Positions 10,463 to 33,853 of a stretch of 37,091 bases of DNA are shown in pieces. The notes under the pieces were generated by a model. That model was given only the letters and a program-made list of their open reading frames with translations. It ran no database searches and was not told the DNA's origin. The DNA lies in IMG/VR virus record IMGVR_UViG_3300049783_001518, positions 1 through 37,091 of that record. The stretch is one strand, 5' to 3'. Position numbers and translations under genes: made by a program. The number at the start of each line of letters is the position of its first letter. Position 1 is the first letter of the stretch. This DNA is from a virus.

Positions 10463-10807
10463 ATGAAATACATTAAAAAGTTTAATGAAAATATCGCAGA
10501 TGATATTCTTGATAAGAATAAAACATTAAAGGATCTGAAAGATAATGGATTAATATACACTGTAGGAGCAGTTAAAAGATATTTAAAAGATCCACAAAAT
10601 AAATGGAATGTAGAACTCATGCCATTCCCTGAGAATCTAATGATTCTTAATATTCTTATAGGTGGGAAAATAGGTCAATATCATTTTAAAAAATGTGTGA
10701 AAAGTAGAAATACTTTGGATGAATGGAATTGGATTTCTAAAATTAAAAAGGAAGATTTAGATAGTTTCCCTATTCCTGATGAAGTATATAAAGATATAGT
10801 AGGATAA
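10463..10807 (+). CDS. Candidate internal head protein, 114 aa
   Basis: The N-terminus MKYIKKFNENIADD resembles the T4 capsid targeting sequence of internal proteins (MKTYQEFIAEA): a short basic/aromatic leader, with a possible prohead-protease cut after F-N-E. The rest is soluble and mixed alpha/beta (e.g. NVELMPFPENLMILNILIGG) without a recognised family. Packaging in the head is inferred only from this leader. It stands alone between a minus operon and the tmRNA. Confidence 0.6.
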   Translation: MKYIKKFNENIADDILDKNKTLKDLKDNGLIYTVGAVKRYLKDPQNKWNVELMPFPENLMILNILIGGKIGQYHFKKCVKSRNTLDEWNWISKIKKEDLDSFPIPDEVYKDIVG

Positions 10808-10822
10808 TATTATAAAATAATC

Positions 10823-10830
10823 TATATTTG
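10823..10830 (+). promoter_or_regulatory. Bacteroidetes-type -7 element before the tmRNA (TATATTTG)
   Basis: TATATTTG on the plus strand overlaps the left edge of the TTGGAAAAA element at 10828. The tmRNA may therefore have both an early host-like promoter and a late phage promoter. Confidence 0.35.
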
Positions 10831-10862
10831 GAAAAACTTTATTATATTTTTATTATATATAA
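10828..10862 (+). promoter_or_regulatory. Putative strong late promoter, tmRNA gene
   Basis: TTGGAAAAA, an AT-rich spacer, then TATATA (10856-10861). The distance from the second T of TTGG to the box is 27 bases, identical to the elements before the protease/scaffold and capsid genes. The mature tmRNA 5' end lies 22 bases past the box, leaving a short precursor leader. Confidence 0.5.
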
Positions 10863-10882
10863 CAAAGAAAGCATAAACAAAT

Positions 10883-11245
10883 GGGGGTAATTGGCATAGA
10901 CCGTTATCGATTTGGAATTGTAAGCAAGTATCGGATTGTCTATTAAAGTGCCCGATTAATAAATTAACAGATATTTTTTAAACGACAACGAAACAATTGG
11001 CGTATTAGACTTTTTTAACTCTACGGAGGTAAATGAGGGAGAACTTTTACAAGTAGTCTAATTAGAAAAACACTTCAAAACCGAGTTCATTAGCGGGATA
11101 TCTCTTGAAACTGATTTCTTTGTTTAGAATCAACAGTTAAAAAATGAATCTAAAATAGGATGTTTATACCGAAAATATAAAATATACTTGTAGAAAGCTA
11201 TTTTAAACATAATTGGGACGGGATTCTCGGATATCCCTACCTCCA
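10883..11245 (+). ncRNA. ssrA: Transfer-messenger RNA (tmRNA)
   Basis: The 5' end GGGGGTA (10883-10889) pairs with TACCTCC (11238-11244) to form a 7-bp tRNA-like acceptor stem with one G-U pair. A D-like region (ATTGGCATAGACC) follows, then the conserved tmRNA-like TGTAAGCAAGTA. CAAGTAT there pairs with ATACTTG in the 3' part, forming the long P2 helix. Near the 3' end come CTTGTAGAAAGC, GGGAC, and a T-arm GGGAT/ATCCC. Length 363 nt is normal for tmRNA. The RNA rescues stalled ribosomes and tags their products. Oddities: an 8-base T-loop (TCTCGGAT) instead of TTCGANN; CCA is not encoded (A is followed by CG); and the tag frame does not end in ALAA. A second tmRNA-like 3' end lies at 12029. 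Confidence 0.85.
10999..11061 (+). other. Probable tmRNA tag reading frame
   Basis: Bacteroidetes tags usually begin with a GGC resume codon. Taking GGC at 10999, the frame runs G-V-L-D-F-F-N-S and on to E-L-L-Q-V-V, then TAA (11059-11061), 20 codons in all. It lacks the normal ALAA ending. In another frame a short ending QLAY before TAG is possible. The resume codon is a guess from position and family habit. Confidence 0.35.
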
Positions 11246-12028
11246 CGAATAATTAGGTATCATATAAATATATGATACCTTTTTTACTTGAGAAGAATAG
11301 ATTTTCTACTTGTCTCAGGCACTCCAATTTATCTTTTAAATAAAATTCTTCTTTAACTCTTATTAATAAAAAATTATTATTCTCACAATATTCATTCATT
11401 AACTTATCTTTAAATTGTTTTTTCTCTAATTGATTATGTATATCTTTAAAATGCCATATACCATCATATTCGAGGGATATTTTTAAATCATCAACCCAAA
11501 GATCTCTGACTAATATCTCATCTTTATATTTTAATCCACCACCTGTTTTCCATGTGATATTAGGGTGATTATTTTTGAAATGATCCACTATCTCTCTTTC
11601 TCCCTTAGATGTGTAAAACCTCTTCCTATTTAATTGTCTTTTTCTGAATGATTTATTATCTTTCCATAATTTTTTAATAGACATAGATGTATTTTTTGAT
11701 CTTTGATCATTTACTTCTTTCGACCATACACGAGAATTGGCACAACTTCGAGAACAGAAATTTTTTTCTTTTTTCTTCCCCTCACGATAAACTATATCAA
11801 CTACATTATCACAATTTTCTTTATAACAAACTACACTTTCATAAATTCGGATACCATGTTTCGTATTATGTCTTTTCTGTAATTCCTTTCTCATATTCTT
11901 CAGTCCTTCTTCTGAATATTGAGTATCTTTGTGCTTCCATCGTATATGATTAGCGTATAATGAATTATTTTCAAATTCTTCTTTACATATTTTACATACT
12001 TTCATATAGTATATAGTAAAATATAATA
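11246..12028. mobile_element. Inferred endonuclease-carrying insertion at the tmRNA 3' end
   Basis: The segment between the tmRNA 3' end (11245) and the displaced 3' end (12029) holds only the endonuclease gene. Both flanks share ATCCC followed by TACCTCCAC, as expected when an element inserts at a tmRNA 3' end and supplies or keeps a second copy. No integrase is present, so homing or recombination rather than site-specific integration is more likely. Borders are approximate. Confidence 0.5.
11253..12005 (-). CDS. Zinc-finger PD-(D/E)XK (Vsr-like) endonuclease, probable homing type
   Basis: A 250-aa protein. The N-terminus is a C2H2 finger (Cys4, Cys7, His20, His25). A second metal-binding cluster follows (CYKENC and CSRSC, about residues 60-95). 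The C-terminal half looks like the Vsr/DUF559-type PD-(D/E)XK nuclease fold: GEREIVDHFKNN, then VRDLWVDDLKISLEYDGIWH with the acidic residues expected for metal binding. This architecture is common in phage homing endonucleases. The gene lies on the opposite strand, wedged between the tmRNA 3' end and a second tmRNA-like 3' end, so its cutting site is plausibly in the tmRNA T-arm region. It has no close neighbours on its strand; expression may be from AT-rich DNA at 12006-12028. Confidence 0.75.
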   Translation of the reverse strand: MKVCKICKEEFENNSLYANHIRWKHKDTQYSEEGLKNMRKELQKRHNTKHGIRIYESVVCYKENCDNVVDIVYREGKKKEKNFCSRSCANSRVWSKEVNDQRSKNTSMSIKKLWKDNKSFRKRQLNRKRFYTSKGEREIVDHFKNNHPNITWKTGGGLKYKDEILVRDLWVDDLKISLEYDGIWHFKDIHNQLEKKQFKDKLMNEYCENNNFLLIRVKEEFYLKDKLECLRQVENLFFSSKKGIIYLYDT

Positions 12029-12053
12029 GGTTCGAATCCCAATACCTCCACCA
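12029..12053 (+). repeat. Displaced tmRNA-like 3' end (T-loop, acceptor strand, CCA)
   Basis: It reads GGTTCGAATCCCAA, then TACCTCC-A-CCA: a normal T-loop TTCGAAT, the T-stem 3' strand, an acceptor 3' strand that would pair with the tmRNA 5' GGGGGTA, and an encoded CCA. There is no tRNA body upstream. A terminator follows 11 bases later, so this looks like the original tmRNA end cut off by the insertion. Confidence 0.7.
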
Positions 12054-12064
12054 CTAACTAAAAA

Positions 12065-12092
12065 ATCCGAAACATTGTTTCGGATTTTTTTA
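12065..12092. terminator. Bidirectional rho-independent terminator
   Basis: ATCCGAAAC - ATT - GTTTCGGAT (9-bp stem), with an A-run before and a T-run after. On the plus strand it would end the original tmRNA transcript; on the minus strand it ends the operon whose last gene stops at 12093. Confidence 0.88.
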
Positions 12093-12305
12093 TTATAATA
12101 AGTTTTCTTTCATAAAATCATAAAATTTTTCTCTCAATTCCAACCTAATACGCTCTCGGTTCATATGATCTCCTGCAGTACTTAGACTTGGTTCTACATG
12201 AGCAACACCCCTTATCATTTTCACCGCATTTAATATCACCTCAACATCATCTTCCCTGTAATCTTTATCCAATGTTACTGTAAATCCTTTTATTCTATCT
12301 GTCAT
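12093..12305 (-). CDS. Conserved small phage protein, 70 aa
   Basis: The sequence KGFTVTLDKDYREDDVEVILNAVKMIRGVAHVEP resembles a small protein I recall in many T4-like and other phages; its function is not known. The beta-alpha-beta pattern suggests a ferredoxin-like fold. It is the last gene of the operon starting at 14567 and lies right beside the terminator. Confidence 0.75.
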   Translation of the reverse strand: MTDRIKGFTVTLDKDYREDDVEVILNAVKMIRGVAHVEPSLSTAGDHMNRERIRLELREKFYDFMKENLL

Positions 12306-12333
12306 TTCATTATTATTTAAAAATTAATATCAT

Positions 12334-13125
12334 TTATATACCCAATTCCGTGAGGGTGTTATCTCTTATAGTACTGAATATAGTTTCTCCTGTTTCATCA
12401 TCTTCACCCACATACTCACTCCACTGTGTTAGTTCAGTAGGAGTTATATTATAACCATCTTTAATTAATTGGTTATATAATTCAACATACCCCTCAATAC
12501 CTTCGGGATAGTTACGAAAAACCCATCCATATTTTTCAATATCTATAAATATACTATTATAAACAGTATTACCTCTTTCATTTTCAATAAACTTGTTTCC
12601 CTTTTTATTCTTAAATGGATTCGATGAAAATTCATCTCCATCGATCCAATTAACAACATCATCCATAGATTTAAAACCTAAATCTTTAGTAGTCTTATTC
12701 GTTATTTTATAGTTAAATTTATTTTCATAGTCAGTTTCTCCTTTTTCTATTAAAATACATTCCATGGATCGAATACAGACATCATCATTATCAAAAAGGT
12801 CACGCACAGGAGATCTTACACCATCTTGTTCATCTAAGTCTAATAAACATGATGGAAGAATCTCTATGTAACTAGAATATCCATTAAGGCAATAAAAGGT
12901 TTTATTATCATAATCAACTATAAATAACCCATATGAATCAACATCTATTCTATCTTCGAAATAATCACCATGCGACCCGTTGTTAAGGAAATCAGTTAAT
13001 AATTTATTATTCGGATTTGTCAGAAACTCCTTATCATATACAACATTCGAAAATGTACCTGTATATGCAGAAACTCCTGTTATTTTATGATCATGTCTTT
13101 TGATTATTGATATTTGCCCTCCCAT
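12334..13125 (-). CDS. Hypothetical protein, 263 aa
   Basis: A soluble acidic protein starting MGGQISIIKRHDHK. It has aromatic and Asp-rich stretches and ends SEYVGEDDETGETIFSTIRD before a short tail. No motif was recognised. It starts 2 bases after the stop of the small membrane protein gene at 13128. Function unknown. Confidence 0.7.
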   Translation of the reverse strand: MGGQISIIKRHDHKITGVSAYTGTFSNVVYDKEFLTNPNNKLLTDFLNNGSHGDYFEDRIDVDSYGLFIVDYDNKTFYCLNGYSSYIEILPSCLLDLDEQDGVRSPVRDLFDNDDVCIRSMECILIEKGETDYENKFNYKITNKTTKDLGFKSMDDVVNWIDGDEFSSNPFKNKKGNKFIENERGNTVYNSIFIDIEKYGWVFRNYPEGIEGYVELYNQLIKDGYNITPTELTQWSEYVGEDDETGETIFSTIRDNTLTELGI

Positions 13126-13127
13126 AT

Positions 13128-13322
13128 TTATAGAATTTTCTCCTTATATTTATTTAATATCTTATATAAATATATACCAGAATGAAACCCACCAACACAA
13201 CAAAGGAATAATAAAAGACCTACCATATATGGATGATTTAAAATTTCCGTGAATACGATTACTTCAAAAAGTGCTAATCCGAAAAAAACTATCGCTATTA
13301 TTAAGTTATTTAATGCTTTCAT
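13128..13322 (-). CDS. Small two-helix membrane protein, 64 aa
   Basis: Two hydrophobic segments, about residues 5-27 and 32-53, with a basic C-terminus (LNKYKEKIL), predict a helical hairpin in the inner membrane. It sits tightly between 13334-14068 and 12334-13125 in the same operon. Function unknown. Confidence 0.65.
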   Translation of the reverse strand: MKALNNLIIAIVFFGLALFEVIVFTEILNHPYMVGLLLFLCCVGGFHSGIYLYKILNKYKEKIL

Positions 13323-13333
13323 AATTATTTATT

Positions 13334-14068
13334 TTATTTTAAATATTTTTTCATTTCTTTAATATCATCACCACGCATTTGGTAAATACCACTAACTGAT
13401 ATATTTCTACCCACTGTGGTACAATCAGAAAACACGATATCATCAGGTCTTAATGATACGTAAATTCTATCGTTGATCTTCACCCCAAATGAATTACATG
13501 GTTTGTAATTAGTCTTAGTACTAAGGAATTCTAATGTATTAAGTGATGTTTTGGATATGTGATCCAAAACAATTGATAATACCTTTGGTTTATCGAAAGG
13601 AATATCTCTCATAAAATCATAAAAAGTTGTATTATCATAAAAAATATCATCAGACATAACGGAATTATCACCATTGAGTATTTTATTAAATACATCTTTA
13701 GCCTTATCTTCAGCTCCAAGACCTCTACCATCAAAATAATCCTTTAATATTTCTAATAATATAAATTTAGAATTGAAATTCCCACCTGTGAACAGGTTGA
13801 ATATTAGATCATGACTATGAATTTTATGTGTTTGTATAGCTTTTTTAATGATATCGATAACTTCTAATTTGTTATCATCAGAAAACTCATTAACAACATT
13901 AACTTTAGTGTATTTATGTGTTGTTATTGTTTCTTCGATCCAAATCTCATCAGTGGCTGAACTAATAGAATTTTCTTCGATGAATTTATTAGCCTCGCTA
14001 ACTGACCCAAATAATTTCCTTACAGAAGTATCTTTTAACCTTACTACTTTTTTTTCCGTATTTTTCAT
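13334..14068 (-). CDS. Hypothetical protein, 244 aa
   Basis: A soluble protein with a basic N-terminus (MKNTEKKVVRLKDTSVRKLF), a helical middle and a beta-rich C-terminal part ending SVSGIYQMRGDDIKEMKKYLK. No known family. Its start overlaps the stop of 14065-14304 by 4 bases, a sign of translational coupling. Function unknown. Confidence 0.7.
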   Translation of the reverse strand: MKNTEKKVVRLKDTSVRKLFGSVSEANKFIEENSISSATDEIWIEETITTHKYTKVNVVNEFSDDNKLEVIDIIKKAIQTHKIHSHDLIFNLFTGGNFNSKFILLEILKDYFDGRGLGAEDKAKDVFNKILNGDNSVMSDDIFYDNTTFYDFMRDIPFDKPKVLSIVLDHISKTSLNTLEFLSTKTNYKPCNSFGVKINDRIYVSLRPDDIVFSDCTTVGRNISVSGIYQMRGDDIKEMKKYLK

Positions 14069-14304: not shown

Positions 14305-14309
14305 TATAA

Positions 14310-14567: not shown

Positions 14568-14588
14568 GGTTTATTATTTTAATTTATA

Positions 14589-14596: not shown

Positions 14597-14611
14597 CCAA
14601 TAAATATTTAA

Positions 14612-14617: not shown

Positions 14618-14639
14618 CTAAAAACCTAATTAAATATCC

Positions 14640-15584: not shown

Positions 15585-16799
15585 ATGATCAAAAAATTCA
15601 ATTCATTTAAAGATATAGTAAATGAGAATCATTATTCCGAATTAAAGCTAAAATACCACTCTCTTGGTGAGTATGTAGAGCACCTTTATAATATAATAGA
15701 TGATAAGTCAGAGTTTTTAGTTATATTAGGAGAACATCTTAAAGTTCCTAAGAAAAAATATAAAACTAGTTCATATAAAGTTAATGATTATGTTTTATTA
15801 GAATATTGGTATGGTGAATTTCTAACACCTGTTAAGTTAATTGATAAACATGGTAGGAAATTTACCGCAAGTCATGATATAGCAGAAAGTGAAATACAAA
15901 ACGCCCCCGATGAAATGATAACAAAAGATATGATCGTGGATCACTTCAGAAAAACAAAAGATAACCAAGTATATAAAAATATACCGACCGATGTTCGGAT
16001 ATCTAACTCAGTTAATTTATTAAATGCTTATGACCAAATGTTATTAGTTAAGAAATTACAAGATAAATTTGATGTTAGTGAGAGAGTTAAATTTGATTTG
16101 GATATCGAAGAGGGTAAAAATGTATCTATATTAGGTCAAATAGGATTTAATAGTTTCCTTAAAGTATTATCAGCTCTTAACTTACCTGACATAGAAATAA
16201 ATAGAGAGAATTGTCCAAATGACTTTTTCTTAATATTTATTACTGAAAAATTAAACATCGATAGATTATTAGCAGTATTCAAGAGGTTTAGGTCAATGGG
16301 TCAAATTTCTGATCTATTATCTAATTCAAATAATTCAGTGAGAGTTTATTTTGGTTTAAAATATGGTAATAAATTAATGTTAGAATATGGTATTATCAAA
16401 GATGAAAAGAGAATTGTTATTGGTGAATATACTTTATCTAAAAAGAATTGGGATAAATTGAAAGCTAAAAAATCCAAACCATTACAATCTTTACAATCTC
16501 AGATAGAACATATAGACATTAAAGAACTTAAAAAGTTAATGAAAATAAAAGGGGAAATTAGTAATTTTAGTCCAGGATATTATAATGAAAAAACTAATCC
16601 TTATATCGAAAATAATACATTAGTACAAGGATATGAAGGCACAGGTAAATGGGATAGTGGTACTATAACGACCAAGAGCTTCGATGAAATAAAATCTACA
16701 TTTAAAGAATGGGTATCAACTCAGAAATGGGCTAAAGAAATAGTATTTAACATCAAACCTGATAAATTTTGGATATGGGTAAAAATTAAAATGAATTAA
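15585..16799 (+). CDS. Candidate internal head protein, 404 aa
   Basis: The N-terminus MIKKFNSFKDIVNENHYSEL has the leader pattern of this phage, with a predicted prohead-protease cut after I-V-N-E (residue 14). The body contains two or three mixed alpha/beta domains of about 100 residues and ends in a segment rich in Trp and Lys (WVSTQKWAKEIVFNIKPD). The mid-protein domain (around residues 220-300) looks loosely similar in layout to parts of the 441-aa protein at 18431, but this was not aligned. No enzyme motif is visible. Head packaging is inferred from the leader. Confidence 0.65.
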   Translation: MIKKFNSFKDIVNENHYSELKLKYHSLGEYVEHLYNIIDDKSEFLVILGEHLKVPKKKYKTSSYKVNDYVLLEYWYGEFLTPVKLIDKHGRKFTASHDIAESEIQNAPDEMITKDMIVDHFRKTKDNQVYKNIPTDVRISNSVNLLNAYDQMLLVKKLQDKFDVSERVKFDLDIEEGKNVSILGQIGFNSFLKVLSALNLPDIEINRENCPNDFFLIFITEKLNIDRLLAVFKRFRSMGQISDLLSNSNNSVRVYFGLKYGNKLMLEYGIIKDEKRIVIGEYTLSKKNWDKLKAKKSKPLQSLQSQIEHIDIKELKKLMKIKGEISNFSPGYYNEKTNPYIENNTLVQGYEGTGKWDSGTITTKSFDEIKSTFKEWVSTQKWAKEIVFNIKPDKFWIWVKIKMN

Positions 16800-18430: not shown

Positions 18431-19756
18431 TTATCTTGAATGAGATAGGTTACTTATAAGTAAAGGCTTTCCACTTTTAAGATCGCGTATAGTTTTAATC
18501 ATTTGGCTATCCCATTTACTTAATACCTTATCTATATCATTTTTGGATAATTTTTGTTTTAGTTCTTTGATCTCCTTTTCGAGTTGTGAAATTTCATTTC
18601 GTATATCACTTGTCATGTCATTCACATCAGGAGCATCTTCATTATATAAATCTTCATTCGTACCACTATAAGTATCAGGAATATCAGTTGTATTGATATC
18701 ACGACTTTTATCTTTCAATTGTTTTACCTTTTCTTCCTTATTAGTAATGAGCTTTTGAGTAAGGATCGAATCTCTTTTTTTGTAAAGTAAATCCGAGTAG
18801 GCTCTTAAAAAAGGATTAAGATCTATCAGTCTATTTAATGTTGGAACATCTATCTCAGTTTCTATATCACCAAACATTCTATCAAATACAGCTTTCTTAG
18901 ATTTATATTTATTATACTGATCTATATTTAATTTTATCATTTGATTTTCCTTTTCAACAGGTGTTGTGTTAGGATCTTTTTTGATAGTTTCTTCTGATAG
19001 TTCCTCGTTCATTTTAAACATGGCTTTTCTAGTATCCTCTTTGGATAATATATGAAGGCATTCTTCTAGATCTTCTGAATCTACAATACTTTGTGTATCC
19101 TCATCTCCCCTGATGTTAAACACAAAATATATTCGAAAAGATCCATCAAATTCATCTTCTATGAGTATTAATTGCTCGTCATTTTTATACTTGAATTTAA
19201 ATTCATAACCTGTTTTGATTACATCATTATTAAATTCCTTAATAGTATATTGTACTTTATATTTATCTAATATATCACGTACTTGCCAAACGGTATTGGT
19301 TATTTCATTAGAAAAGCTCGATTCGTTCATTTTAAGTAACCAAGAAGAAATATCAATAGAGTCTAATATCACATCTCTTAATTCTTCAATACTATGTACT
19401 CCTTGTATTTCCTTTGTTATACCATATGCATCTTTATAACCAAACAGTATTGTAAAAGTGTCAACTTCTTTTAGTTTATATGCTTTAATAAAATAGCTTC
19501 TTTTTTGGAAAGTGTATATGAAAAACCGTGTGTGTTCTATCTCAATTTTATCTTGTTTTTTATCAACGTAATCAACCCCATTTTTATCCACCCACGATTT
19601 ACTAATTCCTGATTTATTGTTTTTAGGTGTGATTAATACTGATTTTGTGGGTATGTGTAGTTCCTTTAAAAGAGAAGCGATTTTCACTTCCATTTCATTA
19701 GCTCCTGGCGAAGATTCGTTCAATTTAAATTGAGTATATGAATTAATATGTTTCAT
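18431..19756 (-). CDS. Candidate internal head protein, 441 aa
   Basis: The leader MKHINSYTQFKLNESSPGAN fits the capsid-targeting pattern, with a predicted cut after L-N-E (residue 14). Further M-N-E tripeptides occur inside (LKMNE-S, FKMNE-E) and may be additional processing sites. Two similar alpha/beta segments (about 25-130 and 150-235) are followed by a helical, coiled-coil-rich C-terminal half. No enzyme motif is seen. Its start overlaps the stop of 19756-20271 by 1 base, so the two are coupled. The three-gene unit starts at 22140 behind a TATATATATA box, which fits late expression. Confidence 0.68.
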   Translation of the reverse strand: MKHINSYTQFKLNESSPGANEMEVKIASLLKELHIPTKSVLITPKNNKSGISKSWVDKNGVDYVDKKQDKIEIEHTRFFIYTFQKRSYFIKAYKLKEVDTFTILFGYKDAYGITKEIQGVHSIEELRDVILDSIDISSWLLKMNESSFSNEITNTVWQVRDILDKYKVQYTIKEFNNDVIKTGYEFKFKYKNDEQLILIEDEFDGSFRIYFVFNIRGDEDTQSIVDSEDLEECLHILSKEDTRKAMFKMNEELSEETIKKDPNTTPVEKENQMIKLNIDQYNKYKSKKAVFDRMFGDIETEIDVPTLNRLIDLNPFLRAYSDLLYKKRDSILTQKLITNKEEKVKQLKDKSRDINTTDIPDTYSGTNEDLYNEDAPDVNDMTSDIRNEISQLEKEIKELKQKLSKNDIDKVLSKWDSQMIKTIRDLKSGKPLLISNLSHSR

Positions 19757-20271
19757 TATATAATAACATTTTTTTGAATAGCTTTAAGCTCTTCACCCTT
19801 TATACTTATAAATTCTTTCAGACCCTCTTCCATTAATCTCATTTTTTCTTGTAACTTCTTAATGCTTTCTTCTTCTTCTTTTATACGCTCATTCTTATCT
19901 TTTACTCGATCGTCAATATTAGCTTGTTGGGCTGCTTGTTCATCTTCATCAGACATTTGACCTAATAAAGAAGTATCATTTTTTAATGAATTAAGTTCCT
20001 CTGCATATTGTTCGAGCATTTTTTCTTTTCGTTTGATAGTAACTTCAACTTTTAACATATTTCCATAACTATCAAGAAAGGGATTCTCTTTAACTATATC
20101 TGCGTAATTTTTAGATATATCTTTATCACTATCAATGTTATTTAACATAAGATTTTTTAAATTGTTCTTCTTATTATTAAAATCTCTTAATTGAAATTGA
20201 AGAACTTCACCATCTGATTGCTCATCCATCATGGATTCTTTAATATACCTTTTAAAACTTTTAATATACAT
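19756..20271 (-). CDS. Candidate internal head protein, coiled coil, 171 aa
   Basis: The leader MYIKSFKRYIKESMMDEQSD has the same basic/aromatic pattern, with a possible cut after I-K-E (residue 12). Most of the rest is a highly charged coiled coil (e.g. KNERIKEEEESIKKLQEKMR). It is in the middle of the 22140-18431 unit and has a 1-base overlap with the next gene. A scaffold-core or packaged structural role is inferred; no homolog is named. Confidence 0.62.
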   Translation of the reverse strand: MYIKSFKRYIKESMMDEQSDGEVLQFQLRDFNNKKNNLKNLMLNNIDSDKDISKNYADIVKENPFLDSYGNMLKVEVTIKRKEKMLEQYAEELNSLKNDTSLLGQMSDEDEQAAQQANIDDRVKDKNERIKEEEESIKKLQEKMRLMEEGLKEFISIKGEELKAIQKNVII

Positions 20272-20301: not shown

Positions 20302-22140
20302 TTACGTCGTTCTAGTACCTCTTGTTTCTCCATCATCATCATCACCAACTCCTATAATTCGAGATTTTAATATTTCAATATCTGCTCGACTCTCATCTCT
20401 AGTTTTCTTTGTTGATATCTTGATAGATTTATCCATTATTCTAGTGATAATTCCCTTACCTGTTCCACGACCACTCGCTCTATTATATGTAACTTCATCA
20501 CCAACTACATATCCATCAATTGTTATTTCATCTTTATGTATTCTACTACTAGTTTCTGATGGTTTTTTCCCCCTTTTATTTATACCAAGAAATTCCTGAG
20601 TTAATTTAACATAATCATCACCTATGTTACTTTTTTCTAAACTATCAGTGATAGTTGTCATTACCTTTTCTGGTAATTGATCTTTGTAATAAGATATAAT
20701 CTCATTTACTTTTTTAACCCAAGATTGGTATCCTTTTCGGTTGATAGCTCTACTACCACCCTCAAGTTTATCATACCACCTTTTTTGATTCTTTCTTATT
20801 TCATCATATGGTTTAGTGTGAAGTAAAGCATTTTTAGCTTTTGATAAAATAGCCATTAAACTTTTAGCTTGTCGTCCTGTGATTTCCTCTACTTTAACTC
20901 TTTTCTCAGCAATCTTATTTATTTTAATAACTTGTTCTTTAGTTATTTTCCATTTTTTAGATGCCTTTTCTATATCTTTCCTAACTCTATTAAATTGACT
21001 CTGTGTTAGATATTCTGATGTATCAGGTTCTGTCTCATCCTCGGTATCAACATCTTCGAATATTGATGTGATACTTTCTAGTACCGATGTAATACTTTCT
21101 AATAACATTAATTTCTCAGACACATCCCCATCAGCAGTATCACAAACACTACATAATTTATAGACTAGTCTAAAATTTGTTTTAATTTCATTAATAAATC
21201 CCAGTACGTCATTCAATTGCTTATCAGTTAATTGCCCATCATTAAATTTAGATTTGAGGCTCACTATTCTATTCTTTAGATTACCAATCAGCGCATTCTT
21301 TCTTTTATTATTACCCTTACCCCTACATTTATAACAAAGTTTTCTTGCTTGTAGAAATTTTTCATCAATACTTGCTATAAAATCTCTTACTTTAGTTATA
21401 GTACCCTCCTTTTTATCATCATCTTCTGTAGATTCCTTATTATCTTCTTCTTGTTCTTTATTATCTTCTCCCGCTTCTTCTCCCGCCTCTTCTCCTTTAT
21501 TATTAACTTCAATTTCTTCAATTTTTTCACCACCATCTTCTGTATTCTCACCACCATCTTCTGTATTCTCACCACTTTCTTCATATTCTTCATCACCATC
21601 TTCTGTATTCTCATCAGAACCACCCTCATTTTCTTCATCTTCTATACTACTACCTAAAATTGCTAATGCTGCTTTTTCAGCAGATTCAGGTAACATGGAA
21701 AGTGATTTTCTAGATGGGTTTAATTGGTATAAAATATCTTTCGATTCTTCTTCCTTACCATTAATATATAATTCAACCGAATCGATTATAGCTTCTGAAA
21801 TTACTACTAATTCAACTCCAATTTCAGGAGTTATTACCTCTACATCTGTATCAACGTCTGCTTCTGTATCAACGTCTGCTTCTGTATCATCCGCCGTTGT
21901 TTCTATACCAGAATCACCAAGTACTTCATCCATAACTATTGATGCGAGTAATCTATCTAATTGTTTAGAATAGACTGTCATTTTAGTTGCACTTACTGCA
22001 GACCTAAAAAGTCCTAATAGTCTATGTAAGCTACCACCTATTAATGTTTCTCCAAACTCAGGAGTCTCCATTTTAGATGAATCCATATCGATCGTTTCAT
22101 TAACTTTATTATATTGATTTCGATTGTAAATATATTTCAT
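20302..22140 (-). CDS. Candidate internal head protein with acidic repeats and zinc-like motif, 612 aa
   Basis: The leader MKYIYNRNQYNKVNETIDMD carries a predicted protease cut after V-N-E (residue 15). The protein has an Asp/Glu-rich middle (about 160-245) with short repeats such as GENTEDG. Two CxxC pairs (LCYKCRGKG near 278 and LCSVCDTA near 330) could bind one zinc ion. The C-terminal 200 residues are basic and include ASGRGTGKGIITRIMDKSI, an SH3-like barrel pattern. It is the first gene of a three-gene unit. DNA-binding or head-core function is plausible but not shown. Confidence 0.65.
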   Translation of the reverse strand: MKYIYNRNQYNKVNETIDMDSSKMETPEFGETLIGGSLHRLLGLFRSAVSATKMTVYSKQLDRLLASIVMDEVLGDSGIETTADDTEADVDTEADVDTDVEVITPEIGVELVVISEAIIDSVELYINGKEEESKDILYQLNPSRKSLSMLPESAEKAALAILGSSIEDEENEGGSDENTEDGDEEYEESGENTEDGGENTEDGGEKIEEIEVNNKGEEAGEEAGEDNKEQEEDNKESTEDDDKKEGTITKVRDFIASIDEKFLQARKLCYKCRGKGNNKRKNALIGNLKNRIVSLKSKFNDGQLTDKQLNDVLGFINEIKTNFRLVYKLCSVCDTADGDVSEKLMLLESITSVLESITSIFEDVDTEDETEPDTSEYLTQSQFNRVRKDIEKASKKWKITKEQVIKINKIAEKRVKVEEITGRQAKSLMAILSKAKNALLHTKPYDEIRKNQKRWYDKLEGGSRAINRKGYQSWVKKVNEIISYYKDQLPEKVMTTITDSLEKSNIGDDYVKLTQEFLGINKRGKKPSETSSRIHKDEITIDGYVVGDEVTYNRASGRGTGKGIITRIMDKSIKISTKKTRDESRADIEILKSRIIGVGDDDDGETRGTRTT

Positions 22141-24152: not shown

Positions 24153-25520
24153 ATGAATACCATAAATAAGAGAAAAGCACATATATTTAATATTGATAAT
24201 CTATTAATAAGATTACCCCAAAAAGTATGGATTATAGAGAAAAATAATCCAAGTGAGTGTCTCTTACGTATCCCAAAAGAAGATTATAATCTTATAAAAT
24301 CAGGAGCATATAAAGATAATGAATTATCAATGAGTTTTAATGGTAAAACATATTGGTTAAGTAAAGAAATATTCAATAAACTTAAAAAGAAAGTTAGTAA
24401 GTTAGCTAAATCAGAGGAGTTATCTTTTAGTTTTAGGGAATATACTGATCCTGATATAATACAGGACTTAAAAGTAACACATGACCTATCTCCGATCGAA
24501 CATTTAAAAAATTTAAATGATGATATATACTTCATATCTACAAAGGGAACAGAAAATAGGTATGGTAAGTACTATACAGAGTTAATTGATAAACTTAAAG
24601 AAGAAGGTATTATGGTTAATCAAGTATATTACTTAAACCAATCCTATTTTTCACAAAGTAAAGACAGAAATATAAAGAAAATATGCTATGTGATATTATC
24701 TAACCTTTTAGATAGAGAAATCCAAAATGATAAATTAGGAGAAGGTCTTGATAGGGATTATTCTGAACTTTATTATTATGATACTAATTATGTAACAGTA
24801 AATAAATTAAATTCCCAAATAAATAGTTTCTTGAAGAGATTAAATGGTGAGGATAAGATTAAATGTAAACTATTCCTGAACCTTGTCGGATCTAATCAGT
24901 TAAAGCCATTTACATCCACTGAGGTTAATTTAAATAAATATATCCAAACATTTGAGGGGTTTATTTCAAAAAAAAAACTTAAATTAGAATCTAATTCCAA
25001 TAATAAAGTAACCTGTAAATGTGGGTGGGTGTGGGAAATAGAATCTGATGATAACCGACCTTATTGGTGTCATGAATGTGGGTACGATAATAAAAAGGGT
25101 AAATATTATAAAGAAGATTTGAAAGAGTGGAAAAAAGTAAATGAAAGTTATAGTATTAATAATGATAATAAAAACGAACTAATTAAACTATTTGGTGATA
25201 ATTTAACTTCGAATTTTAATAAGGCTAAAAAATTATTCGATGGGGCTAAAATAAAATACGAAACTTCTACTATACGTGATTACGGCGCAGCACCATCAAG
25301 AAGGTCTATTTATATATCTAGAGGAGCAACACATGGTCGGAATATATTAGAAATAAGATTTAGTGAAGATATAACAACAATGTTTTATGATAATTACACA
25401 ACAAAAATGGTTGTGAGGAATAAGGTGGTTAATATTATGGAAGTGATTCAATTTATTTCAAAATATCTACCTGAATTGATAAATAATAGAGTATTTAAGA
25501 AAATTAACCAAGAAAATTAA
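24153..25520 (+). CDS. Degenerate HAD-like domain plus zinc ribbon protein, 455 aa
   Basis: Residues 1-240 follow the layout of a phage HAD-family domain: AHIFNIDNLLIRLPQKVWII, then SFNGKTYWLS, SFREYTD, DIYFISTKG in the motif II position, and SELYYYDTNYVTV as the acidic end motif. The usual nucleophile Asp of HxDxD is Asn13, so phosphatase activity is doubtful. Around residues 287-312 is a zinc ribbon (CKCGWVW ... WCHECGYDN), a type I recall from T4-like phage head-associated proteins, preceded by FEGFI. A V-N-E-S follows, a possible protease site. The C-terminal 120 residues are alpha/beta. It ends overlapping the convergent gene at 25517 by 4 bases. Confidence 0.6.
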   Translation: MNTINKRKAHIFNIDNLLIRLPQKVWIIEKNNPSECLLRIPKEDYNLIKSGAYKDNELSMSFNGKTYWLSKEIFNKLKKKVSKLAKSEELSFSFREYTDPDIIQDLKVTHDLSPIEHLKNLNDDIYFISTKGTENRYGKYYTELIDKLKEEGIMVNQVYYLNQSYFSQSKDRNIKKICYVILSNLLDREIQNDKLGEGLDRDYSELYYYDTNYVTVNKLNSQINSFLKRLNGEDKIKCKLFLNLVGSNQLKPFTSTEVNLNKYIQTFEGFISKKKLKLESNSNNKVTCKCGWVWEIESDDNRPYWCHECGYDNKKGKYYKEDLKEWKKVNESYSINNDNKNELIKLFGDNLTSNFNKAKKLFDGAKIKYETSTIRDYGAAPSRRSIYISRGATHGRNILEIRFSEDITTMFYDNYTTKMVVRNKVVNIMEVIQFISKYLPELINNRVFKKINQEN

Positions 25521-27293: not shown

Positions 27294-27842
27294 ATGAAAT
27301 TCATAAAATCAATAAATGAATATTTAAGCAACCCATCAGTACACATACCTGATGATTTAGCACTTTGGTGTATGAATTTTTATATATCTGAGAGTTACAC
27401 TACCTATGATTATAATAGAATACCAAGTGATGTTGTGGAGGGGTCTAAGAACCTTATTAAAGAACACACGGGAGCTAATTATTTATTCAGAGGATTTGGT
27501 GATGATAAAATTGGTGATATAAAATTCGAACCTGATGTTAGAGGTAGAGGATCTTCTTGGACTTGGGATCACGAAATGGCTTGTGAGTTTTCAAGTAAAT
27601 ACGATCATATCGATGGTAAATATAGTTTAGTAGCAAGTGTTAATATAGACAATTTGAAATATATAATATCTATGGACTTTATAATGGAAAATATTACACG
27701 AAAACAAATTGATCTACTTGATAATGGTAATCATAAAAACTCAATAATAAACTACGAGTCTGAATATGAAGTAATAATCTTTGACTCATTTATTGTTAAA
27801 AAAGAAAGTATTATACAAACAAAAAACGGGGGATTTATTTAA
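27294..27842 (+). CDS. Putative ADP-ribosyltransferase (R-S-E class), Alt-like, possibly packaged in the head
   Basis: A 182-aa protein with the three landmarks of the arginine-type ADP-ribosyltransferase fold: YLFRGFGDD with Arg66, GRGSSWTWDHEMACEFS in the position of the STS motif (Ser87, Ser88, Thr90), and NYESEYEVII with Glu155-x-Glu157 in the ExE position. Such enzymes transfer ADP-ribose from NAD to Arg of target proteins. In T4, Alt is packaged in the head and injected to modify host RNA polymerase. The leader MKFIKSINEYLS with I-N-E at residues 7-9 suggests the same delivery here. It is far smaller than Alt (about 680 aa) and closer in size to T4 ModA. The target is unknown. It ends exactly where the convergent minus operon ends. 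Confidence 0.65.
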   Translation: MKFIKSINEYLSNPSVHIPDDLALWCMNFYISESYTTYDYNRIPSDVVEGSKNLIKEHTGANYLFRGFGDDKIGDIKFEPDVRGRGSSWTWDHEMACEFSSKYDHIDGKYSLVASVNIDNLKYIISMDFIMENITRKQIDLLDNGNHKNSIINYESEYEVIIFDSFIVKKESIIQTKNGGFI

Positions 27843-28596: not shown

Positions 28597-29808
28597 TTAT
28601 TCATCTTCATCTACAATTATTAAGTATTTAAATATAGACTCATCTCTTTTCATTAACCAAGCTCTACATTTTTCTAATTTATCGCACTGACCTTTAATGA
28701 ACTCTTTTGCTAAATCAAATTCTGTTGTATCTCCATCGGAGTTGATTATCGACATAGCATATCCAAAGTTGGGTGTTTTTTGGTGTTTCATACCAAAATC
28801 TCTTTTACTCTTACCCATTTCATTAAAAACTTCTACCATTTTAAGGATCGCAATTGCTTTGATATTTATTTCATGTTTCACAACATCGATTATCTTATCA
28901 ACTCTTTCGAGCGCATCGGTTTCCTCAGGTGGTATTTGTGTTATGATATCATCAATTTCTTCATCTATAATATACCGAACTAATATATGCTCCCTATATA
29001 GATCACTTGTAAATAACCCATGAAGATCAAAATACCATACAGTTTTTATTTTATAGAAAAAATCATTACCATCATTATCAATCGCGTGTATAACCCAACC
29101 CTCTTTATCTTTAGTGGATTCTTTTTCTTCTATCAGTGTATCTAAGCTACGAAGCTCTTCAAGAGGTGCTACTTTAATATCACCAATTTCGTCTTTGAGG
29201 CTTTCTAGACTAATATATTTACCCGTAGAATTATCTCTAACTCTTAATAAGATAAGTTCTTCAGTATTATACATCAATACAATTCTGTTATGAGGTGCTA
29301 CATATTCAAATACAGCAACAAGATCGTTATCCATAGTGTATTGAACGAAGTTTCTTACCGCTTCGTTTGTTCGATAAATTCTATTGATACCAACTGCTTG
29401 TTCAGATTCGAAACTCATTTTAGATTTAGCCAAAATGCTACCATTAGGTAATTCTATGAATGAGGCGATACTACCATCTTCTTTGTTGTGTATTTCTTTT
29501 ATAGTGTAATCTTTGATAGCATCATATAAAGTATCCTCTGTTTGGTTTAAGTTGAAGAATTTTTGTAATAATAAAAATCTTCGGTACACCGATCCATCTT
29601 CATTAAATACGAAAGTCAATCCTCTTAATTCAAAGGCTCTTAAATTTTCTCCCTCAATAGGAGTTGTGAAATCTTTATATTGTGCTATTCTATAATTAAA
29701 TAAAGACACATTATACCCCCCCATAACATATTTATTTTCATAAAAAGCTGAGTCAACGGTGTTACACATTCTAACACATTCATCGTATGTAGGTAAAAAA
29801 TATTCCAT
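28597..29808 (-). CDS. rnlA: RNA ligase 1 (T4 RnlA-like)
   Basis: A 403-aa protein close in layout to T4 RNA ligase 1 (374 aa). Shared landmarks are an N-terminal adenylation region with AFELRGLTFVF (T4 LECRGIMFEM), KFFNLN, motif I KEDGS with Lys109 the AMP site, KSKMSFESEQA (T4 KSKGSIKSEQA), FEYVAPHNRIVLMY, EGWVIH as motif IV, and YKIKTVWYFDLHGL as motif V. The C-terminal part matches the tRNA-specific domain only loosely. T4 Rnl1 reseals tRNA broken by host anticodon nucleases. The same role is likely here, but the partner end-healing kinase/phosphatase is not in the window. It follows 29810-30211 with a 1-base gap. Confidence 0.93.
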   Translation of the reverse strand: MEYFLPTYDECVRMCNTVDSAFYENKYVMGGYNVSLFNYRIAQYKDFTTPIEGENLRAFELRGLTFVFNEDGSVYRRFLLLQKFFNLNQTEDTLYDAIKDYTIKEIHNKEDGSIASFIELPNGSILAKSKMSFESEQAVGINRIYRTNEAVRNFVQYTMDNDLVAVFEYVAPHNRIVLMYNTEELILLRVRDNSTGKYISLESLKDEIGDIKVAPLEELRSLDTLIEEKESTKDKEGWVIHAIDNDGNDFFYKIKTVWYFDLHGLFTSDLYREHILVRYIIDEEIDDIITQIPPEETDALERVDKIIDVVKHEINIKAIAILKMVEVFNEMGKSKRDFGMKHQKTPNFGYAMSIINSDGDTTEFDLAKEFIKGQCDKLEKCRAWLMKRDESIFKYLIIVDEDE

Positions 29809-29809
29809 T

Positions 29810-30211: not shown

Positions 30212-30237
30212 ATTTGATATTTTTAGTTAATATCCCA

Positions 30238-30245
30238 CAAATATA
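30238..30245 (-). promoter_or_regulatory. Bacteroidetes-type -7 element (TATATTTG)
   Basis: The minus strand reads TATATTTG 26 bases before the start at 30211. It probably drives the four-gene RNA-ligase operon down to 27843. Confidence 0.5.
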
Positions 30246-30326
30246 CGTTAAATTTCCCGAACATAGTTTAAAACAAGTTGGTTTTTGTGTATTCGTCTAA
30301 TAATTTCCATGTAATCAAAGAAAGAT

Positions 30327-30334
30327 TATATATA
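30327..30334 (+). promoter_or_regulatory. TATATATA box before the terminase gene
   Basis: TATATATA with a 12-base gap to the ATG at 30347, intermediate between the two main spacing classes. Confidence 0.4.
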
Positions 30335-30346
30335 AGGTACTAAATT

Positions 30347-33300
30347 ATGGTAAATAACGAAAAGAAAATAGTATGGACTACTAAAAAAGTACAAGAAGCA
30401 GCACAAAAACTAAATGATGGGTACATACTTCCTAATTATGAAATCCCCTTTTTCGAAAAAACAGTTGGACTTCGCAAAAAAAGTATATCTTTTGGATTTA
30501 CAGGAAACGAGTACGATGAATATGTTAAATGTAAATTAGATGTAACATATTTTGCTAACAATTATTGTTTCATTAAAGTGGAAGATGGTTCATTTAAATT
30601 AATGAATATTCGTGATTATCAGTATGATATATTAGATTTATATGATAATAATAAATATAGTATATTAATGGCATCTCGTCAAGTAGGTAAAACAATAATG
30701 GCATCTATTTACATTCTACATTTTATGCTATTCAATAACACCAAAAATGTGTTATTGGCGGCGAATATATTAGATACATCAAAGGAGGTATTGGGTAAAA
30801 TTAGAGAGATTTATAGCTATTTACCATTCTTCTTACAACAAGGAATTGATGTGTGGTCTGTAACTCAAATGAAATTCCAAAATGGTTGTAGGGCTAAAGC
30901 ATTTGCAATGACAAAAACAGCATCTATTGGTAATGCTGCCGATTTAGTATATGTAGATGAGTTTGCTTATATAAACAATAGTGTTGCTAATAAATTCTAT
31001 AAATCTATATTCCCGACATTAGCGAGTATAGAAAATTCTAAAATGATCATAACATCAACACCCAATGGATTTAATTTATTCCACAAACTATTGACTGATT
31101 CTGAAAGAGAAGATACTGACCCACTTAAAAATAACTTTGGTAGTTTAAGGGTATATTGGCATCAAGTAAAAGGTCGTAATGTGACTTATTTAAAAATAAA
31201 TCCACATTTATTACCTCAATTCGGATTAACTTTAGATGAGGTGATGAAACAATGTAATGAGAAATATAATCCTAATGGTAAAGTAACAAGCAATGAGATA
31301 CCTATTGTAGAATTGAAATATGATAGCGATAAAGGATTACCAATTATAAATATACAGAATAGTGAAAAATTAACATTTGAGGTTATTGGAATGACTGAGT
31401 TCATTAATAATAATGATGAGGTAGTTCACTGTACGAGTATATCAAGTGTATCTACTTGGAAAATAGACACAACTAAAGATATAGGTGGTGAAGATAACTT
31501 TAATAGTGAATTTGATCTTAGATTTTCATCAGGTAGTAAAAATGTTCTATCAGAAACTACAATTGAAAGATTAATGGAGAATAAAAAACCATTTAACCAT
31601 TTAAAGCATGATGTATTTAAAAAACTTCGGTGGGATTACTCCGCCTTGAAGTTCGTAGAAGGATTTGATGAAAATATCCGAAAAAAGATACATGTTATGT
31701 TATCTATTGATATATCCGAGGGGCTTGGGCAAGATTATAGTGTTATAAATATGTTTAAATTAGACTATAAATCAATGGATCTAATTAATGAGCAAAAAGA
31801 TACCTATCAGACATTATCTGACTTCTTCCAATTAATACAATTTGGGATGTTTAGAACTAATATAGTAAGCCATGCTCAGTTAGCAGAAATGGCATACTTA
31901 TTAATATTTGAATTTTTTGACCCCGATCAGGTGAAAGTTACGGTTGAGTATAATAATGATGGTAAAGCTTTTTTCTCTGAAATTAAAAATGTATTTGAAA
32001 ATGATAATGATTATTCAGGTTATGTTATGTTGAAATTTAAGCATAGATTGGATGCGATAAATAAAAGTTATGGGTTAAAAGTAGGAACACTTAAAAATCA
32101 ATATGTTAAAGACTATCAAGCTCGTATGGAGAACCAAGATTTTATCATTTGTAATGAAGTAAATATTAAAGAGGTTGGTACATTTATAAAACACACAACC
32201 ACTGCAGGTAACACTGTATATAAAGGTGATGGTTCTTGTGATGATTGTGTTGTGCCAGATACATTGATAACAACAAATGGTGGGATTAAAATGATTAAAG
32301 ATATTAATGTAGGTGATATGGTGTTGACACACAAAGGTAGGTATAGAAAAGTATTGAAAGTTGGTAATAGACATAGTGATTATATTTATAAAATTAAATC
32401 AAATAATAAATTAGATTTATCTATAACAAACAATCATGAATTATTTTTATTTGAGAAAAAAAATTACACCAATAAAGATAGAAAGTTGAAGTTTTTAAAG
32501 GAACAAAAATGGTTATCTATTGATGATGGTATAGATATAAAGAAACATTATACTGCATTTATTCCAAATCAAGAAGTAAAAAATCTTAATTATATTGATT
32601 TATATGAATATTGTGATAAGAAAAAATTTATAATAAAAAATAAAAAAATATATTCGATTATAAATGGAAATATTAACCATTTGAATCCAACTCAAAATCC
32701 TATTAATAGATATTTAGAAATAGATAATGATATGTGTTATATATTTGGTTATTATTTAGCAGAAGGATCAAGAAATGAACACCAAATAAATTTTAGTAGT
32801 CATATAAACGAAAGATTATTACGTAAAAAAGTTAATGATATTTTCATTAACTTAGGGCTATTTCCTTTTAAAACTAATGGATTACCAAGAAATTCAGGTA
32901 GAATAACCATATCATCAAAAATATTATCTAACTTCTTTAAGGTCTTTGGTAAAAGTGATGATAAGAAATTGCCTAATTTTTGTAATTTCTTACCCGATGA
33001 TAAGTTAAGAAATATTATATATGGATATTTTATGGGAGATGGTGGGTTCTCACAAAAGGGTATTAGATCATTTAGTATTTCCCCATCTATATCATTTTTT
33101 ATATATGAATCTTTAGTTAAATTAGGATATAAACCAAGTTTAAAAAAACAAAATCAAACTAAAAAAACAACATACCCAAATAGTAAAAAATATGGATATG
33201 TTGTGAACGTAAATGATTATGATAAAAATGATATATTATCTTATATGGAGGAGAGTATTCTTATAGATAAAAATATAGAATATCCATTAAATGTATCGGA

Positions 33301-33688
33301 TAAAAAATCATATCAAAAATCCATAGATAATTATTTAATTGGTAAAATCAGAAATATAGAAAAGATTGAATATAATGATATTGTATATAATTTAGAAGTT
33401 GATGATGATAATAGCTATGTAGCGAATGGAGTTATTGTACATAATTGTGCAATGACGCTTGTTAATATGAGTCAAGGTTGGAAAAGTGTTGGGTTTAAAG
33501 AAATGTTAGCTGATTATCACCAAGAAAATGGTAGAGAAGTTATTAAAAACTTAGTTAATAGTATTCTTAATAAGGATATGAGAGTTGGTACAGATTATAC
33601 CTCTTTTTTCAATGCTAAAAATAATTTAAATAAAAATAGTGCTATTGGTAGAATTGGTGGTAAAATAGACGTTAAAAATTTATTCTAA
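30347..33688 (+). CDS. 17: Terminase large subunit (T4 gp17-like), interrupted by an intein
   Basis: A 1113-aa precursor. The exteins form a 713-aa gp17-like packaging motor. ATPase: Walker A SRQVGKT (110-116), Walker B YVDEF (Asp204, Glu205) and coupling motif ITSTPNG. Nuclease: LSIDISEG with Asp455, VTVEYNNDG with Glu534, and GDGSCDD with Asp632/Asp633. The intein occupies residues 634-1033, between this last Asp pair and CAMTLVNM; after splicing the line reads SCDD-CAMT. T4 gp17 is 610 aa, so the spliced protein is about 100 residues longer, with an extra segment near residues 280-340. It translocates DNA into the prohead and cuts concatemers. It stands alone on the plus strand rather than beside the other head genes. 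Confidence 0.95.
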   Translation: MVNNEKKIVWTTKKVQEAAQKLNDGYILPNYEIPFFEKTVGLRKKSISFGFTGNEYDEYVKCKLDVTYFANNYCFIKVEDGSFKLMNIRDYQYDILDLYDNNKYSILMASRQVGKTIMASIYILHFMLFNNTKNVLLAANILDTSKEVLGKIREIYSYLPFFLQQGIDVWSVTQMKFQNGCRAKAFAMTKTASIGNAADLVYVDEFAYINNSVANKFYKSIFPTLASIENSKMIITSTPNGFNLFHKLLTDSEREDTDPLKNNFGSLRVYWHQVKGRNVTYLKINPHLLPQFGLTLDEVMKQCNEKYNPNGKVTSNEIPIVELKYDSDKGLPIINIQNSEKLTFEVIGMTEFINNNDEVVHCTSISSVSTWKIDTTKDIGGEDNFNSEFDLRFSSGSKNVLSETTIERLMENKKPFNHLKHDVFKKLRWDYSALKFVEGFDENIRKKIHVMLSIDISEGLGQDYSVINMFKLDYKSMDLINEQKDTYQTLSDFFQLIQFGMFRTNIVSHAQLAEMAYLLIFEFFDPDQVKVTVEYNNDGKAFFSEIKNVFENDNDYSGYVMLKFKHRLDAINKSYGLKVGTLKNQYVKDYQARMENQDFIICNEVNIKEVGTFIKHTTTAGNTVYKGDGSCDDCVVPDTLITTNGGIKMIKDINVGDMVLTHKGRYRKVLKVGNRHSDYIYKIKSNNKLDLSITNNHELFLFEKKNYTNKDRKLKFLKEQKWLSIDDGIDIKKHYTAFIPNQEVKNLNYIDLYEYCDKKKFIIKNKKIYSIINGNINHLNPTQNPINRYLEIDNDMCYIFGYYLAEGSRNEHQINFSSHINERLLRKKVNDIFINLGLFPFKTNGLPRNSGRITISSKILSNFFKVFGKSDDKKLPNFCNFLPDDKLRNIIYGYFMGDGGFSQKGIRSFSISPSISFFIYESLVKLGYKPSLKKQNQTKKTTYPNSKKYGYVVNVNDYDKNDILSYMEESILIDKNIEYPLNVSDKKSYQKSIDNYLIGKIRNIEKIEYNDIVYNLEVDDDNSYVANGVIVHNCAMTLVNMSQGWKSVGFKEMLADYHQENGREVIKNLVNSILNKDMRVGTDYTSFFNAKNNLNKNSAIGRIGGKIDVKNLF
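32246..33445 (+). mobile_element. Intein with LAGLIDADG homing endonuclease in terminase (400 aa)
   Basis: The N-terminal splicing block begins with Cys1 (CVVPDTLITTNGGIKMIKDI) and is followed by VGDMVLTHKGRYRKVLKV; a block B-like TNNHELFLF comes near residue 67. The C-terminal block ends VANGVIVHN with the terminal His-Asn, followed by Cys+1 of the extein. Two dodecapeptide motifs, IFGYYLAEGS and IIYGYFMGDGG, mark a two-motif LAGLIDADG endonuclease. All splicing residues seen are intact, so splicing should be active. The DNA is more AT-rich than the exteins, consistent with separate origin. Confidence 0.93.
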
Positions 33689-33853
33689 TTTACCGTTTTT
33701 TACTAAATTTTGGTATATAAGATCAGCAGATTTTTTTCTTCGACTATCTTCCTTTTTTATCACTTTATCACTCCACTTAGCACTATTACTATCTGTTGGG
33801 TTTATATCATCACTTGGATATGAGTTTATTTCGTTGAATCTTATTATTTTAAT
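33680..33853 (-). CDS. Small protein with non-ATG start (ATT), 57 aa
   Basis: A 57-codon open frame with good coding character. From ATT at 33853 it reads x-K-I-I-R-F-N-E-I-N, like the MK-leaders ending in F-N-E elsewhere in this phage. It is then hydrophilic with a basic middle (KKEDSRRKKSADLIY). There is no ATG, GTG or TTG between the upstream in-frame stop and the conserved-looking N-terminus; ATT or a following ATA must start it if real. Its 3' end overlaps the terminase gene by 9 bases. It follows the UVR-domain gene by 16 bases. Confidence 0.45.
   Translation of the reverse strand: MKIIRFNEINSYPSDDINPTDSNSAKWSDKVIKKEDSRRKKSADLIYQNLVKNGKLE

Follow-up and report, generated by a model that had tools for sequence, protein, structure and literature searches.

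The window studied here is a stretch of 37,091 nucleotides from the IMG/VR virus record IMGVR_UViG_3300049783_001518, a fragment of a T4-type huge phage, in which several proteins begin with a short leader ending in a hydrophobic residue, any residue and Glu (hydrophobic-x-Glu). Such leaders exist genome-wide in its relatives in numbers exceeding chance, are modular, are constrained at the level of the protein, and share their site with the apparent substrates of the head protease. They are probably T4-style capsid-targeting sequences which would be cut by a gp21-like protease, a principle that is already known from T4. The first-pass annotation of the window had proposed T4-like targeting with cleavage after x-N-E for nine proteins. 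Comparison with other genomes lent this idea strong support through the genome-wide leaders, the shared site and the residues at positions 4 and 7, while the list of nine was too long. The x-N-E code described the FNE and INE leaders, but was too narrow, since leaders ending in [IL]FE/S and F[IL]KE/S were also found (a slash marks the predicted cut), and the scale of 150-190 genes per genome had been missed.

Leaders in the relatives of the window

The capsid protein of the window, a member of the Pfam Gp23 family (5e-28), is 82% identical to that of G001 (270,756 b), the nearest relative, 58% to those of the uncultured phages LR745206 (634,780 b) and LR756502 (642,428 b), 52% to that of LR756504, 48% to those of LR756501/LR756503 (735,411 b) and about 29% to those of Lak and Tenacibaculum phages. 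Genomes over 634 kb have been described as the Mahaphage clade with predicted Bacteroidetes hosts (Al-Shayeb et al., PMC7162821), and the huge relatives of the window are presumably those genomes.

Leaders were counted in the entire genomes of LR745206, LR756502, G002 (596,785 b) and G001, in 200 kb of the 735 kb phage (LR756501), and in the cultivated phages PAU and PTm1, with gene calls that simply took the longest ATG-started frame. Only LR745206 and LR756502 supplied the seed leaders for training a position profile, the seeds being chosen by pattern, and a score of 8, which is reached by 0.5% of the segments starting at an internal Met, was used as cutoff. By this internal-Met null, 157 of 899 genes scored at least 8 in LR745206 where 5.7 were expected, and 188 of 946 in LR756502 where 4.3 were expected. 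The excess was also present in the genomes held out of the training, with 60 of 859 genes in G002 (2.9 expected), 24 of 325 in G001 (2.3 expected) and 29 of 239 in the 200 kb of the 735 kb phage (0.5 expected). When residues 2-20 were shuffled, about 10 leader matches were obtained in the two large genomes. A regular-expression test near the head genes of IMG/VR relatives gave a weak signal, probably because the scaffold repeats raise the internal background, and the position profile was used instead.

In LR745206 the motif [ILVFYM]NE had a frequency of 10.1 per 1000 positions within residues 6-10, against about 2 elsewhere. Without any prior motif, the 3-mers KYL, YLK, FNE, KKF, FES, NES and INE were over-represented at the N-termini of LR745206, and KHL, HLK, KIF, FES, YNE, INE and FNE at those of LR756502, with LFE also appearing in the large-genome set. 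LYE and KTL were enriched in PAU, and no N-terminal 3-mer was enriched in PTm1. A strict DNA pattern of the leader matched 64 stretches of viral contigs and none in 257 Gb of bacterial and archaeal genomes.

Three designs recurred, namely MK[HY][LI][KR][KR][FY]NE/S, MK[HY][LI]..YK[ILV]FE/S and M..[KR][YF]..[FY][IL][NKT]E/S, and each lineage seems to have its own leader dialect. Counted once per body cluster, position 4 was hydrophobic in 100% and position 7 in 98% of class A (the first design; 54 body clusters), and in 96% and 91% of class C (the second design; 54 body clusters). Class A mostly ends in [FY]NE, with a relaxed P3 (the third residue before the cut), and class C, together with other E-anchored leaders, mostly in [ILV]xE. 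For T4 IPIII, packaging needs no more than the first 10 residues; residues 4 and 7 are the main determinants of targeting and residues 8 and 10 those of processing, and related phages are expected to use capsid-targeting sequences as well (PMC9026906). The leaders resemble those of the T4 proteins IPI, IPII, IPIII and Alt, which are processed by gp21, in occupying about 10 N-terminal residues, in the hydrophobic or aromatic residues at 4 and 7 and in the final Glu. The two systems also have in common leaders on unrelated mature proteins, a gp21-like protease, a gp23-like capsid protein with propeptide and a cleavable scaffold. Unlike in T4, the protease and scaffold form one protein here, the site most often has the form [ILVFY][NF]E/[SN], where P3 may also be F or Y, and about 40 times more genes per genome carry the putative tag than the four of T4.

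The shared predicted cut site in capsid protein, protease and scaffold

The T4-type head module was found in the window in the order portal, protease/scaffold fusion and capsid protein at 1147-7033, with the families of gp20 to gp23. The portal protein (1147-2901, plus strand) matched Pfam Portal_T4 at 4.8e-66, and the gp21-like prohead protease/scaffold fusion (2998-5241, plus strand) matched the head maturation protease phrog_207 at 2e-29; the start of the fusion is probably 2998 (MSKNVLIVEHN) rather than 2926. The capsid protein carries a predicted propeptide of residues 1-43 (5330-5458, plus strand) ending in HSINE/NAY, and the S-I-N-E which had been noticed around residue 43 indeed reads S40-I41-N42-E43/N44. 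HS[IL]NE/NAY ends the propeptide in nearly all aligned relatives, with [IVL]NE/N near-invariant, and the arm after the site varies. In a model built from 45 sequences, whose mean predicted local distance difference test (pLDDT) score of 59.5 makes it indicative only, a helical hairpin ends near residue 45, with residue 43 at its end, followed by a low-confidence arm and then by a fold with T4 gp23 and gp24 as the best PDB matches.

The same kind of site also occurs in the fusion protein. Its N-terminal segment (2998-3057, plus strand) ends in EYLNE/N, and the relatives keep a varied hydrophobic-x-E-[NS] there in the form of PLKEN, LIREN, INES or LIKES. At the protease-scaffold junction stands SINE/S (codons of I-N-E at 3502-3510, plus strand), which appears as [ILV]NES in 36 of 36 distinct relatives, though the preceding spacer differs in length. 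The fusion had been described as rich in [ILV]NE sites, and its scaffold part (3511-5241, plus strand), which has E-Y-[IL]-A-E-N repeats, contains 16 [ILVFYM]xE[NSAT] sites against 5.5 in shuffles. In the relatives, the observed number exceeded the shuffled one in 43 of 43 scaffold parts, with a mean of 17.3 against 6.5, a figure which the repeated coiled coil inflates. A gp21-like protease and a capsid propeptide ending in the same motif as the leaders were thus both present, as in T4-type targeting.

In G002, a small conserved protein was found with the mature N-arm of the capsid protein directly after its leader, MKHIKGINE/DGEISGMGAIVSAQPS. Small conserved proteins with this arm (GMG.VVSAQPS...GSGD) are located at 554784 in LR745206 (L092), 542908 in LR756502 (L165) and 288736 in G002 (L185), and separate proteins of 157-165 residues starting with the capsid propeptide at 291407 in LR745206 (L086) and 315773 in LR756502 (L153).

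Leader-bearing proteins and the weighing of explanations

The 490 leader proteins fell into 376 body clusters without detectable homology to one another, that is, the same leader stands on unrelated bodies; the clusters are BLAST-based, and more sensitive methods will reduce their number. RNA ligase, CCA-adding enzyme and DHH proteins form orthologous sets with and without a leader, differing by exactly that prefix, and the RNA ligase of the window (28597-29808) is a version without it. Pfam recognised 14 families in a set of 73 leader proteins from LR745206 and 23 in a set of 138 from LR756502, compared with 101 in 145 randomly drawn leaderless proteins of LR745206, and the PHROGs database gave no match to nine large leader proteins. 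T4-type RNA ligase, DHH and a 2H phosphoesterase related to Acb1, which counters the cyclic-oligonucleotide-based antiphage signalling system (CBASS), bear leaders in both LR745206 and LR756502; further tagged families are Nudix (including the SMODS-associated type), CCA/poly(A) polymerase, methyltransferases and PPK2. In LR745206 (L089:48260-49573), the leader protein MKLKKYKQFIKES is a fusion of an Acb1/2H-like phosphoesterase with an RNase_T-type exonuclease.

From these data the following process could be proposed. The N-terminal 8-20 residues, basic and with hydrophobic or aromatic residues at 4 and 7, would bind the scaffold core during head assembly, and the bound leader would carry its protein inside the prohead. 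Cleavage after hydrophobic-x-Glu by the gp21-like protease, which is fused to the scaffold, would then detach the leader, and the same cut would remove the capsid propeptide (SINE/N), part the protease from the scaffold (SINE/S) and break the scaffold repeats into pieces. The mature proteins so released would stay beside the DNA inside the head, and many would probably be injected. In the relatives of 630-640 kb, the system would serve 150-190 genes, mostly orphans together with some RNA-repair and counter-defence-like enzymes.

Several points weigh against this explanation. Few leaders occur in PTm1, which has the same capsid family, and no match to the strict DNA pattern was obtained in the sampled Lak genome. 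At the third residue before the cut, class A departs from the published T4 rule in having F or Y in place of I or L, and the match of the protease fusion to Pfam Peptidase_S77 (1.1e-4) lies under the curated cutoff of the family, although the PHROG match is strong. The CCA enzyme and RNA ligase, which are among the tagged proteins, usually act in the cytoplasm. Virion proteomics for the clade was not found in the open-access literature searched, and 150-190 kinds of packaged protein would be far above T4, with four tagged or cleaved internal proteins, and SPN3US, with about 50 head proteins. Because this number of candidates is itself startling, caution is needed; some of the leader proteins may enter the head in few copies, or may not be packaged.

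The main competing explanation is that the leader is a localisation signal for some other place, such as a phage-made compartment, a membrane or the replication site, with the resemblance to the head site being secondary. It would suit a tag on about one fifth of the genes, including cytoplasmic-type enzymes such as RNA ligase, the CCA enzyme and methyltransferases. It is nevertheless improbable, for the capsid propeptide ends in the same site, which also sits at the protease-scaffold junction, positions 4 and 7 agree with T4 targeting, and tRNA-synthetase, AAA and other housekeeping families were seen in the random leaderless control and not in the two leader sets. Moreover, the leaders of Sphingomonas (Sphingobacterium) phage PAU cluster at the head genes, with 15 of 21 lying within 36 of its 285 genes (P=5e-11). 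PAU carries MKT[LI]..LYE[AS] leaders on 15-20 small proteins near the head genes, two of which are annotated as 'internal capsid protein'; unlike the huge relatives, it uses another dialect and fewer genes.

A translation-initiation or other nucleic-acid feature of the early codons is very unlikely to account for the leaders. They stand directly at the start codon, and a lysine-rich, A-rich start could aid initiation, but the codons for F, N, E and S in leaders vary synonymously with the usage of the genome background, therefore the constraint acts on the peptide. Hydrophobic-x-E was in excess at residues 6-10 (244 against 117 and 243 against 112), whereas the controls hydrophobic-x-D and hydrophobic-x-Q were without comparable excess, and the E site is found at positions ranging from residue 9 to about 20.

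Descent of the leaders, through gene duplication, from a single ancestral protein or a small number of them can be given just as little credence. Some clusters are indeed paralogous families (for example at 236-240 kb and 498-501 kb of G002), but the 376 clusters have no detectable body homology, the known folds are all different, and orthologues gain or lose the leader alone.

If the leaders are capsid-targeting sequences, the largest phages might carry a head-loaded arsenal of 150-190 proteins per genome, about one fifth of the genes, delivered with the DNA before any transcription and including pre-made counter-defence and tRNA-repair enzymes, with the leader as a module gained and lost gene by gene. 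This wider proposal is tentative and roughly balanced between acceptance and doubt; equally tentatively, the arsenal would include the Acb1-like 2H phosphoesterase-exonuclease fusion, T4-type RNA ligase, the CCA enzyme, Nudix and DHH proteins. On this view, a large part of what the largest phages use for takeover and counter-defence would be delivered as protein, and the leader could serve to find new packaged effectors. The leaders offer a sequence-only route to predicting the packaged, probably injected proteins of uncultured huge phages, whose genes are mostly orphans. Because each lineage seems to have its own dialect, the approach should transfer: capsid protein and protease reveal the cut site of a lineage, for which the N-termini can then be searched.

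Among the known systems, phiKZ, 201phi2-1 and SPN3US also process many of their internal or ejected head proteins after Glu, and in 201phi2-1, 19 of 89 virion proteins are processed with few determinants besides Glu (PMC9026906); the present phages differ in the short recognisable leader and in far more candidate genes. Nudix and ADP-ribosyltransferase proteins have independently been argued to be packaged and injected by myoviruses (Iyer et al. 2022, PMC9503650), where packaging was deduced from fusions and gene neighbourhood, whereas here the leader is a sequence tag. In the open-access papers searched, no report was found that describes such leaders in this clade, how many genes bear them, or their presence on RNA-repair and counter-defence-like enzymes.

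Two further recurrent motifs were observed. G002 contains dozens of paralogous proteins of 190-350 residues with MKNLI[ST]KEEKDRID..C..Y.I.NY.INSDGSIDVDG (L171-L200; for example 44,928-135,390), and its enriched words KEEKDR and KNLI were rejected as leaders, being those of one large paralogous family; a body similar to these paralogues occurs in L017 behind the leader MMKYLNEFKIFES. In the first 200 kb of LR756501 (L201-L210; for example L207:10076-10468), the motif DPYGEE[NDIEV]W is present in 27 of 239 genes in 35 copies, nine of them at the extreme C-terminus and others directly behind a leader, and it had no copy in any of the other genomes read. It is possibly another tag.

Leader genes of the window

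Four of the 51 window genes, 10463, 18431, 20302 and 27294, scored at or above the cutoff where 0.6 were expected from the internal-Met null, and shuffled N-terminal residues gave 0.4 expected with a maximum of 2 in 50 rounds. The genes 15585 and 19756 have weaker scores and were retained because their relatives carry leaders. The N-termini quoted by the first-pass annotation were all present in the sequence, and of its nine proteins six are firm or likely members as judged by the profile and the relatives (10463, 15585, 18431, 19756, 20302 and 27294), 33680 is a possible one, and 23278 and 26752 were removed. The gene 23278 scored 8.5, yet its homologues in other genomes are without a matching leader, and 26752 scored 2.5 and its tandem paralogue 26205 scored -0.1, so the profile gives them no support.

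The significance of the window leaders comes from the comparison with relatives and not from the window's own x-N-E count, which was 6 against 3.2 (P=0.1) and not significant. On that count alone, chance matches in AT-rich genomes rich in lysine, asparagine and isoleucine might be considered, but for the clade they are refuted by the internal-Met and shuffle nulls of the same genomes (4-11 against 157-188), and this last explanation, scarcely credible overall, still applies to 23278, 26752 and perhaps 33680.

The clearest leader is MKYIKKFNE (10463-10489, plus strand) of class A, which scored 24.0 (null P=0.0001) and begins an orphan protein of 114 residues (10463-10807) whose body had no homologue in the relatives searched. 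MKFIKSINE (27294-27320, plus strand; score 13.5, P=0.0006) begins a protein of 182 residues (27294-27842). Its body contains RG..SSW..ExE residues which by eye are reminiscent of ADP-ribosyltransferases, and an Alt-type ADP-ribosyltransferase is a guess; Pfam, PDB and viral searches gave no match, and a single-sequence model was unusable (pLDDT 34).

The leader MIKKFNSFKDIVNE (15585-15626, plus strand; score 7.4, P=0.0065) belongs to a protein of 404 residues (15585-16799). Its homologues in four other genomes have leader-like N-termini in other letters, MITKFNNFKINE/G, MIIKKYIKFIKE/N, MKIKNYIQFIKE/S and MKSILKFNEYITE/D, and the leaders MITKFNNFKINEG, MIIKKYIKFIKEN and MKIKNYIQFIKES of relatives likewise differ in letters and are alike in design.

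Three neighbouring leader genes lie on the minus strand. The protein of 441 residues (18431-19756) begins with MKHINSYTQFKLNE (19715-19756; score 18.1, P=0.0004). Its sequence contains the internal sites LLKMNES and MFKMNEE, separated by about 100 residues, and if the head protease cuts at KMNES and KMNEE, the protein could be divided into three pieces. A coiled-coil protein of 171 residues (19756-20271) begins with MYIKSFKRYIKE (20236-20271; score 4.7, P=0.018), and its G001 orthologue starts with MRVKSYKLFKEEN in the same leader design. Leader proteins of similar size adjoin leader proteins of 800 residues in LR745206, LR756502 and G002, and sequence search detected no homology between them and the 19756-20271 gene. 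The third, MKYIYNRNQYNKVNE (22096-22140; score 9.4, P=0.002), starts a protein of 612 residues (20302-22140), for which phmmer detected no homologue, and which in position and N-terminal style is like the leader proteins of 794-800 residues in LR745206, LR756502 and G002 (MKYLSKRSEYLKSAKYKVINES).

The possible leader MKIIRFNE (33830-33853, minus strand) of an open reading frame of 57 residues (33680-33853) would score 14.5 if ATT is the start. In the relatives, leaders at ATT starts were 3 of 726 against 33 of 14,862 at other codons, without clear excess.

Other features of the window were also observed. The protein at 24153-25520 (plus strand) is fusion-like, with a body of about 280 residues, which has relatives in four genomes, followed by a zinc ribbon; a leader-like YIQTFEGF lies where the two meet, and the zinc ribbon is free-standing behind the leader MKHLETYKIFE in L007:17119-17577. 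At 34498-35808 (minus strand) there are at least three tandem paralogues of about 93-111 residues with MIERF[RK][ED]IGF.L...Y and without a leader. The T4-type terminase large subunit (30347-33688, plus strand) contains an intein with a LAGLIDADG domain (Pfam Intein_splicing, 3e-12).

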